Of a DNA stretch of 49,449 nucleotides, positions 276 to 47,146 are shown piece by piece. The position numbers and the translations under genes are program-made. Location of the stretch: positions 18,109 to 67,557 of the forward strand of contig FN648573.1 of assembly GCA_000310025.1 (NCBI GenBank), read 5' to 3'. The notes below the pieces were generated by a model, which worked only from the letters and a program-made list of their open reading frames with translations, was not told the origin of the DNA and ran no database searches. Position 1 is the first letter of the stretch. Each line of letters opens with the position of its first letter. Source of the DNA: Ectocarpus siliculosus. Lineage: Eukaryota > Sar > Phaeophyceae > Ectocarpales > Ectocarpaceae.

Positions 276-2700
276 GTTTTTCCGCGTGCCAACGGCGGAT
301 GTGTCCGTTGTGGACTTGACGTGCCGCCTGACGAAGGGCGCCAGCTACGATTTTTTTCTGGCCGCCATGAAGGATGCATCTTAGGGGTCGATGAAGGGAT
401 ACCTGGTGAGATATGCTGTGATGCTGTGAGAGGTGGTACAAGTGTCATACGGAAGGGGTACGTGGTGAGAGATACATCGAGAGTTAATGAGAGGTACATT
501 CGGAAGGGATACCGGGTTAGCAGATGCCGAAAGGACCTGAGAGGTACCTACGGAAGGGGCGCCTTGCTTGAGGGGTATTATGAGGTGTAGAGATGTATAT
601 ATCACGGAAGGGATACATATATACTTGGTGAGGAACTGCTGTAGTGAGAGGATAGTGAGACGTATCACGCGGAAGTGATATACGGCGAGAGAGACTGAGC
701 GGCAGTGACAGGTACGCGTGTCACATGGGAGGGATGCCTGGAGAGAGTTAGAGTTAGTGAGAGTAAGTGCGGAGGTACGAGCATCACACGGAAGGGATAG
801 AATTGTAGCGCATTGACAGGAACAACAAGTACTTACGGAAGGGATACCTGGCGAGAGGTACTATTTAGAGCATTTACCAACACGCCCGCTACCTAGGGCG
901 CCCTCATTTCCCTCTCCCTCCCCCCTCTATCCATAACCGTGTGATACTCTTGGTTCACCCGTCAACTCTTGGTGTTCCCGTGAACCCAGGGTTCCACCAC
1001 ACTCCATAACCTCAATCATGTTACGCTGTTGGTTTACCCGTCAACTCTTGAATTTCCCGTGAACCCAGGGTTCCACCACACTCTATAACCTTAACCGTAT
1101 GATGCTATTGGTTTACCCGTAAACTCTTGGTTTACCCGTAGACTCTTGGTTTACCCGTAAACTCTTGGTTTACCCGTAAACTCTTGGTTTACCCGTGAAC
1201 CCAAGGGTTCTACCGCACTCTTAACCTTAACCGTGTGATGCTATTGGTTTAACCGTAAACTCTTGGTTTACCCGTGACCCCAGGGTTACACGGAGGATGC
1301 GGTAGTGTCCTCTGACTTCATCGGTGACTCTCGATCGTCCATCTTCGACGCCACGGCCGGCATCGCCCTCACTGACGACTTCGTCAAGCTCGTGTCGTGG
1401 TACGACAACGAATGGTGAGAAAATTTCAAAATTTCATGAAATGGCGTCACTCGTTCATATGTATGCACGTGATGCGTGTTTGGAGCAAAGCATAGCAGTG
1501 CTGATGTGATGAGTTAAGTGTGTGGCGTGACTCATGTGCCCGAAACGTGTTATTGTATGTGTATGCAGTGCCGACGTGGTGTATGTAGCAATGCACAGCA
1601 GTGCTGACTCCGCATGTGTTCCGCGTGTATGTAGCAGCAGTGCTTGGTTCTGGCTTGGGAGAACGGCGCTAGGATACTGCTGTTTTTCGTTTTCACGAAG
1701 AGTCTGAACGCTCTCCTACCCCAGAAGTGTCGTTTCGGCACTGTTGGTTCCTCTCGTAAAATAATGTCGAAATCATGGAAACGCTAAGGGGTTCCGCAGA
1801 TAGAACATATTTCCTGCATTTAGGCTTGGAACGAGCACCCACTCGTGACAAGCCAGCCTCCCAACCCTAAGGAGGAAGTACGGTCGGGAGTAACATCATA
1901 CATACTACAAGTACAATGCCAGCTGACCGACGGTCAGCTGTCGCCTAGCTGCATTACCTAGTAGCAGGTAGTCTTACTTCCGGCCGTAGCATACTTCCTC
2001 CTTAGGGTTGGGAGACTGGCTTGTCACGAGTGGGTGCTCGTGACAAGCCTCTCTACAGGCAATCTGTTCTCATCTGCGGAGCCCCTTAGCGAATCCATGA
2101 TTTCGACACTTTTTTACATGATGTCTTCGTCAACCTCTCGTAGTGTGGTAGTGGAATGGTGTGTTATCGTGACGCTCCCACTCTGACCTCCCGTTGGTCA
2201 CGTCAACTCTTCGCTCGTCGGAGCCAAGTTTAACCTTAACCATCACCATTTTCATCGCAGGGTCTCTGCTCTCGCATGAGTTATCCATCAAATCTTTTTT
2301 GGAGAAGGCCGCCCGGCCTCTGCCGTAGGCGAAAACCGCTCGCTGTGTTCGTTTTTCTTCGCACGTCGAATTTGATCCGCGGGAAAGCCGGGCTACTCGT
2401 GATGTGATTGGTCAAGAACGACGAGAGCAACGTTCCGTGCTCCTGAAGAAACCACCATGCGTAAGGCAGCATTTCTGTTTTCCTACATGCAGCCCACTAC
2501 TGCTGTACCAGCCGAGAACGCCTCCCAATTTACCACTGCCACAGCCCTCATTTACACCAGTAGTTTGCCTTTGTTCTCTATGCCGACATTCAACGCTGTC
2601 CCCTGTCCCCTCTCGTGCGTACTGCGTGTGCTTTTTTATCCCCAGGGGTTACTCCAACCGTGTGTTGGACCTCATCACTCACATGGACAAGTCCTCCTAA
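276..2700 (+). CDS. GAPDH: Glyceraldehyde-3-phosphate dehydrogenase, C-terminal exons (5' part outside the window)
   Basis: Glycolytic NAD-dependent enzyme converting glyceraldehyde-3-phosphate to 1,3-bisphosphoglycerate. Three exons are visible: 276-405, 1284-1414 and 2646-2700 (stop TAA 2698-2700). The first reads [16 protein letters not shown] then AAMKDAS; the second reads [19 protein letters not shown] and [10 protein letters not shown]; the third reads [17 protein letters not shown]. These are classic GAPDH C-terminal blocks, including the SWYDNEWGYSNRV segment. Junctions are consistent: CTG|gtgag to cccag|GGT (phase 0), then GAATG|gtgag to cccag|GGG, which restores Trp. The acceptor at 271-275 (cttag) follows a long C-run. 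Oddities: codon 382-384 is TAG where GAG (Glu) is expected, between KDAS and GSMKGYL, and YDFFL stands where YDDIK-like sequence is usual. The frame is otherwise intact, so a sequencing error, an inactive allele or a recent pseudogene are all possible. Earlier exons lie left of base 1. Confidence 0.88.
406..875 (+). repeat. Degenerate tandem array built from the GAPDH 5' splice junction
   Basis: The intron opens at the donor CTG|gtgag (406). Eight degenerate units follow, starting near 449, 500, 552, 614, 669, 727, 788 and 835 (spacing about 47-62 bp). Each begins with a version of the exon end and donor, GAAGGGATACCTG then gtgagag. The last unit (835-858) is almost identical to the real junction. 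The units therefore repeat the exon end together with the splice site. Confidence 0.8.
936..1283 (+). repeat. Tandem array built from the GAPDH 3' splice junction, with a 19-bp core satellite
   Basis: The 3' half of the same intron repeats blocks ending cccgtgaacccagggtt (near 977, 1056 and 1195), closely matching the real acceptor region cccgtgaccccag|GGTTACAC at 1271-1291. Between 1106 and 1206 a 19-bp unit (ggtttacccgtaaactctt) is repeated about five times. The true acceptor is the last unit of the array. Confidence 0.8.
1756..2118. repeat. Foldback (long inverted repeat) in the last GAPDH intron
   Basis: The left arm (about 1756-1880) is nearly the reverse complement of the right arm (about 1992-2118). 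The inner 48 bp (1833-1880 against 1992-2039) have one mismatch; the outer part is a little less similar. The loop contains a further small palindrome, agctgaccg/cggtcagct. It has no visible coding capacity and no clear terminal duplication. It could be a MITE or foldback element, or a long hairpin transcript inside the intron. Confidence 0.8.

Positions 2701-47146: not shown

Follow-up and report, generated by a model that had tools for sequence, protein, structure and literature searches.

The window analysed here is a stretch of 49,449 nucleotides of Ectocarpus siliculosus DNA (contig C118, positions 18109–67557, in a 189.5-Mb assembly of 492 contigs). It carries a GAPDH gene on the forward strand, an eIF3a gene on the reverse strand and a putative gene for an Ala-rich protein. 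A reading of the window made from its letters (hereafter the sequence-only reading) had claimed that in three or more genes, distributed over both strands, introns contain tandem copies of their own exon–intron junctions. We placed the exon edges by spliced protein-to-DNA alignment, with the human eIF3a and GAPDH proteins as guides. The alignment reproduced exactly the edges at 25555, 24773, 24023, 20532, 17104, 16125, 15399 and 15287 in eIF3a, and at 405 and 1284 in GAPDH. One further eIF3a edge, 17631, which the automatic model overran, was placed manually; GTTTGT follows the end of the exon there.

Eighteen window introns entered the analysis. Two belong to GAPDH (a third, modelled farther upstream, was rejected as spurious) and 16 to eIF3a (exons 27654 to 13561), one of these having a doubtful donor (20412). 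The automatic model had proposed a total of 26 introns; we merged small exons of doubtful standing and excluded the stretches before 27654 and beyond 13561.

The GAPDH intron at 406–1283 (forward strand) consists largely of tandem repeats. Copies of its donor junction (edge 405) lie at 452–473, 503–545 and 838–856, and copies of its acceptor junction (edge 1284) at 931–997, 1009–1076 and 1088–1157, the last having lost its AG. No other match to this intron sequence was found in the genome. The GAPDH exon at 276–405 carries an in-frame TAG at 382–384, and this copy of the gene, which has a paralogue on contig C33, may because of that codon be a pseudogene or reflect an assembly error. The sequence upstream of the window is a run of N, which places the 5′ part of the gene outside our view. 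The second GAPDH intron contains a large imperfect palindrome at 1756–2117, with 299 of 379 positions matching its own reverse complement, which resembles a hairpin or a miniature inverted-repeat element. Farther along, a tandem duplication pairs 3843–4606 with 4382–5149 at a spacing of about 539 bp (704 of 790 positions identical in a gapped alignment), and the repeats within it at 4145–4269 and 4684–4808 share an identical TRF consensus.

Eight eIF3a introns, all on the reverse strand, hold copies of one or both of their junctions. The clearest case is the acceptor at 20532 (intron 20533–21683), copied at 20652–20725 with 47 exon bases and at 20740–20814 with 42; each copy keeps its AG and some 30 bases of neighbouring intron, with an identity of about 86%. 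A weaker copy lies farther upstream (67 of 97 positions identical). In a search of the genome, the junction copies of this intron matched only their own gene among the matches listed. Three other acceptors are copied: 25555 at 25623–25650 (intron 25556–27590; 9 exon bases, AG kept), 24773 at 24957–25024 (AG lost) and 24848–24894 (AG kept; intron 24774–25407), and 24023 at 24193–24229 (intron 24024–24704; 12 exon bases, AG kept). The intron at 15400–16124 has both ends copied, donor 16125 at 15903–15989 and 15793–15827 and acceptor 15399 at 15491–15589, with 36 exon bases. Donor copies also occur for 15287 at 15157–15208 (intron 14711–15286; 22 exon bases, GT kept) and, in a short form with 10 exon bases, for 17104 at 17033–17052 (intron 16281–17103). 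Edge 17631, which the sequence-only reading had called probable, has donor-junction copies in its own intron (17169–17630) at 17412–17447 and 17333–17350, the boundary being the hand-set one.

The third gene is a different matter. A tandem duplication of about 129 bp spans 46434–46668 on the forward strand, and its second copy enters the putative Ala-rich exon at 46652; 46434–46540 aligns with 46563–46668 at 75 of 114 positions, with a 23-nt core at 87%. Edge 46652 being putative, what the sequence-only reading claimed for three or more genes is shown here for two, one on each strand (eIF3a reverse, GAPDH forward).

For all 11 eIF3a and GAPDH edges that had been named, the claim of own-junction copies inside the intron holds: each has at least one junction-crossing alignment, with 9–47 exon bases. 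We then counted junctions under fixed rules, requiring a score of at least 26 (a cut-off of our own choosing), at least 8 exon and at least 2 intron bases, and removing low-complexity matches. By this count, 11 of the 36 junctions of the 18 window introns are copied within the intron they border. There were none in 1440 comparisons with the introns of other genes, and none on the reverse strand.

How far does this extend beyond the window? We drew a sample of genes chosen regardless of repeats: those for CCT, Hsp60, Rpt/Cdc48-like ATPases, ATP synthase/V-ATPase, Hsp90, EF2 and MCM proteins. Some families were taken in part (seven Rpt/Cdc48-like loci, EF2 alone from its search, and six MCM places). 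Thirty stretches were taken and one was dropped (L024, a low-scoring gene with 11 introns), leaving 29 loci, 222 introns and 444 junctions. In all, 41 of 263 introns were set aside before counting (23 of 209 in a first set, 18 of 54 in a second) for uncertain boundaries, short exons, membership of the dropped stretch or of the GAPDH paralogue; this was judged by alignment quality, and the exclusions in the first set were made with the CCT repeat results already known. The sampled introns have a median length of 502 bp, are strongly biased towards phase 0 (167 of 222) and include 15 GC donors.

In this sample, 13 of the 444 junctions are copied within their own intron (13 introns at nine loci). 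The cross-intron control was positive in 7 of 17760 comparisons, which gives an expectation of 0.17, and the reverse strand gave none. Comparing each sampled junction with its own and with other introns, a version of the check that the sequence-only reading had asked for, thus bears out an effect outside the window as well. In the first 186 introns, cut-offs of 22, 26 and 30 gave 11, 10 and 8 junctions against 0.70, 0.12 and 0.03 expected, the reverse-strand counts being 3, 0 and 0. About 6% of sampled introns are affected, and the rate per junction is tenfold below that of the window (Fisher p = 1.1e-7). We conclude that the effect is general but sparse, and that the two window genes are dense in it.

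Junction copies are one part of a wider pattern of local repetition. Direct arrays occur in 44 of the 222 sampled introns, compared with 0.3 after dinucleotide shuffling, and in 14 of the 18 window introns; array spans make up 10% of intron bases in 186 sample introns and 42% in the window. Cut into 600-bp tiles, the window has direct repeats in 32 of its 79 tiles and the other loci in 38 of 261. Three neighbouring stretches (L026–L028) are almost entirely N; the only one on this contig that could be read (L029) had repeats in 4 of 16 tiles. Among the 186 introns, those bearing arrays have a median length of 628.5 bp and those free of arrays 494.5 bp, a difference that is expected also because longer introns give more room. 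The middle 80% of copy offsets in these introns lies between 45 and 207 bp, and 50 of the 57 repeat pairs are wholly intronic. None of the 57 is an exon-only copy lacking a junction; the window has two exon-only pairs, and looser scoring gave at least two weak exon-only matches among the matches listed. Inverted repeats are present in 17 of the 186 introns (a raw count), so that duplication is not the sole local process.

Do these arrays seek out junctions? We redrew them at random over each intron and up to 60 exon bases on either side, assuming that arrays are independent. In the 222 sampled introns, 10 arrays contact a junction and 10.3 are expected (z = −0.11), from which we take it that junctions are on the whole not preferred in the sampled genes. 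By end, the contacts are 8 at donors and 2 at acceptors (5.3 and 5.0 expected); the last 36 introns alone gave 3 contacts versus 1.3 expected (z = 1.55). Counted by repeat pairs, the strict scoring gave 7 versus 9.0 expected in the 186-intron sample and 13 versus 4.6 in the window. The placement of arrays in the 222 sampled introns, together with the 13 introns affected, gives no support to the suggestion that copying of junctions is a genome-wide habit. In the window, 11 arrays contact a junction where 3.8 are expected (z = 3.8), in a set picked for the feature and with neighbouring arrays that are not independent. The window genes were selected for showing the feature, and we therefore treat this excess as a lead rather than a result.

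Two earlier forms of the test were set aside. Matching 40 exon bases with the intron, a weaker test that uses exon sequence only and was superseded, gave z above 4 for 8 of 187 junctions, and 15 junctions were reached by at most 2 of 200 shuffles. Self-alignment with loose +1/−1 scoring found a spanning repeat in 9 of 94 introns of the CCT, Hsp60 and GAPDH-paralogue genes and in 7 of 16 eIF3a introns (0.2 and 0.0 after shuffling), with spanning counts of 10 versus 7.6 and 8 versus 5.2 expected, respectively. The loose scoring yielded long matches of low identity and was replaced by the stricter one.

The behaviour of the copies was followed in 31 copies at 21 junctions (10 from the 186-intron sample and 11 from the window). 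They are in direct orientation, in their own intron and mostly close to their own junction: relative to intron length they lie at distances of 0.02–0.61, with 22 of the 31 under 0.3 and none at the far end. Their exon-derived parts are 0.905 identical and their intron-derived parts 0.827, a contrast that end effects of local alignment may inflate and that would be expected if constraint acts on one of the two exon parts compared, whereas both of the intron parts drift. Mismatches in the exon-derived parts fall at codon positions 1, 2 and 3 in 16 of 176, 25 of 180 and 10 of 183 cases (one intron skipped); as there is no third-position excess, these parts appear to be free of coding constraint. 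Of the 31 copies, 23 retain the splice dinucleotide, and 23.6 are expected from identity alone. The description of the copies as intact decoys accordingly fits the 23 that retain an exact GT or AG, the rest having lost it at the neutral rate; decoys would seem to be neither removed nor preserved. The greater divergence of the copies, relative to the real junction, fits neutral decay of sequence left inside introns.

We think it likely that these observations stem from neutral tandem duplications that crossed exon edges while splicing stayed with the exon-side copy, and the process resembles ordinary duplication of local DNA more than a targeted one. Head-to-tail duplication of local blocks of DNA would lengthen introns, with block ends falling irrespective of splice sites. 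Where a block straddled an exon edge, the exon-side copy would keep the full exon and remain in use, and the other copy, carrying the tail or head of the exon and a splice site, would land in the intron and decay neutrally as a decoy. Repeated events would produce a series of junction copies. Protein alignment suggests that splicing uses the exon-side copy only. At the DNA level we infer replication slippage, unequal exchange or end joining, making no choice among the three. Junction copies look like a by-product of local tandem duplication that is mostly wholly intronic. The proposal, already made in the sequence-only reading, that duplication across exon edges is the origin and that one copy stays spliced is supported by the own-intron count in the sample (13 of 444 against 0.17), and with it the corollary that introns lengthen and acquire serial decoy sites while the protein is unchanged.

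Other explanations have to be weighed. Junctions could, in at least some genes, be preferred sites of duplication, or the copies could be kept for a function, as decoys or for stepwise splicing. The window's excess of contacts would fit, as would the two copies of acceptor 20532, which preserve AG and long flanks on both sides. The random sample of 222 introns has no such excess, however, dinucleotides are retained at the neutral rate, and the window was selected for the feature; we regard this reading as distinctly unlikely. For dense genes of the eIF3a and GAPDH type in particular, exon edges might be duplication hot spots (with DNA damage, co-transcriptional or linked to splicing, as one example of a cause), or serial decoys might be tolerated or used for stepwise splicing, which we consider unlikely. 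Were hot spots or stepwise splicing the answer, these would be introns grown from their own splice sites. Neutral duplication does not account for the high density, or for the junction excess, in the two window genes that drew attention to the feature.

Introns might instead have been born by tandem duplication of exonic segments containing AGGT (intron gain of the Rogers type), the copies being traces of birth. The direct repeats do include parts of exons, and the review PMC3443670, in the passages that deal with it, accepts tandem duplication as one way in which introns arise. Such a birth predicts that the tail of the upstream exon is copied to the intron's opposite end, where the copy would supply the new splice site. 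All 31 copies lie instead at 0.02–0.61 of intron length from their own junction, and 50 of the 57 repeat pairs never reach an exon, making this origin very unlikely.

Mobile introners or transposons are a still less probable source. A dispersed repeat of about 160 bp does sit in the middle of eIF3a intron 21683–20533 (about 21268–21431) and recurs in at least 39 further places in the genome. An introner would be one sequence common to many introns; what we found were 7 cross-intron junction matches among 17760 and a GAPDH intron of unique sequence. Moreover, among the matches listed, those of the dispersed repeat miss the junction copies, and the junction copies match their own gene only. Adjoining the dispersed repeat is a 101-bp tandem array at 21356–21666.

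Alternative, mutually exclusive exons or errors in the gene models are just as improbable: copies carry up to 47 exon bases and many of them have intact splice sites, but they are partial exons, their differences are not concentrated at third codon positions, and protein alignments picked the exon-side copy.

Returning to neutral duplication across exon edges, there are precedents for duplications that cross such boundaries. In the account of the potato RdRp gene excerpted from PMC4974935, a tandem duplication across an intron–exon edge copied the acceptor, the pyrimidine tract and the head of the exon, an 83-bp tandem duplication lies within the first intron too, and activation of a cryptic donor created a new intron and exon. 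There, as in 13 of 444 sampled and 11 of 36 window junctions, the duplicated block includes the exon edge. Unlike that case, exon structure here is apparently unchanged, the copies decay in the intron, and the event recurs in 13 of 222 introns. The duplication-born introns reviewed in PMC3443670 likewise, as far as its excerpted text goes, involve local duplication that multiplies splice-like sequence; here, by contrast, existing introns grow, and copies lie mostly nearer their own junction instead of furnishing a new intron with its second border. The abridged account of PMC11782384 also describes direct repeats at splice sites or close to them: these repeats near intron borders measure 4–30 bp, are common to both intron ends and are read as insertion scars, whereas in our introns one junction is copied into the same side of its intron, the blocks reaching about 100 bp. 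The excerpts of PMC2891723 discuss intron sliding and tandem duplication for Drosophila. For Ectocarpus itself, the available passages of PMC12477816 give an autosomal median intron of 524 bp, close to the 502 bp of our sample; their topics are transposons and overall tandem-repeat density, ours is junction copies. Among the titles listed in searches of a collection of open-licence papers, none dealt with junction copies as a genome-wide feature; we do not claim their absence from print. The difference from known cases appears to be that existing introns lengthen, with exon structure apparently constant, in a way that can be counted across the genome.

Through neutral duplication, introns would grow longer and acquire decoy splice sites ready-made, by a simple route that can be counted and that leaves the protein unaltered; such copies would be raw material for new introns, new exons or shifted splice sites. 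The 13 of 222 introns and the random-like placement of arrays provide a null model for an annotated brown-algal genome with RNA data.

Some features of the assembly at large were recorded along the way. A search for the psbA family (PF00124) found no match in the assembly. The EsV-1-7 motif is typical of brown algae, and at least 150 matches to it were scored (150 of 880 candidates scored). The light-harvesting family has 87 matches. Contigs C92, C232 and C488 carry many light-harvesting genes, each with a near-full-length family match in a single open frame, and C92 has ten light-harvesting places of identical score.
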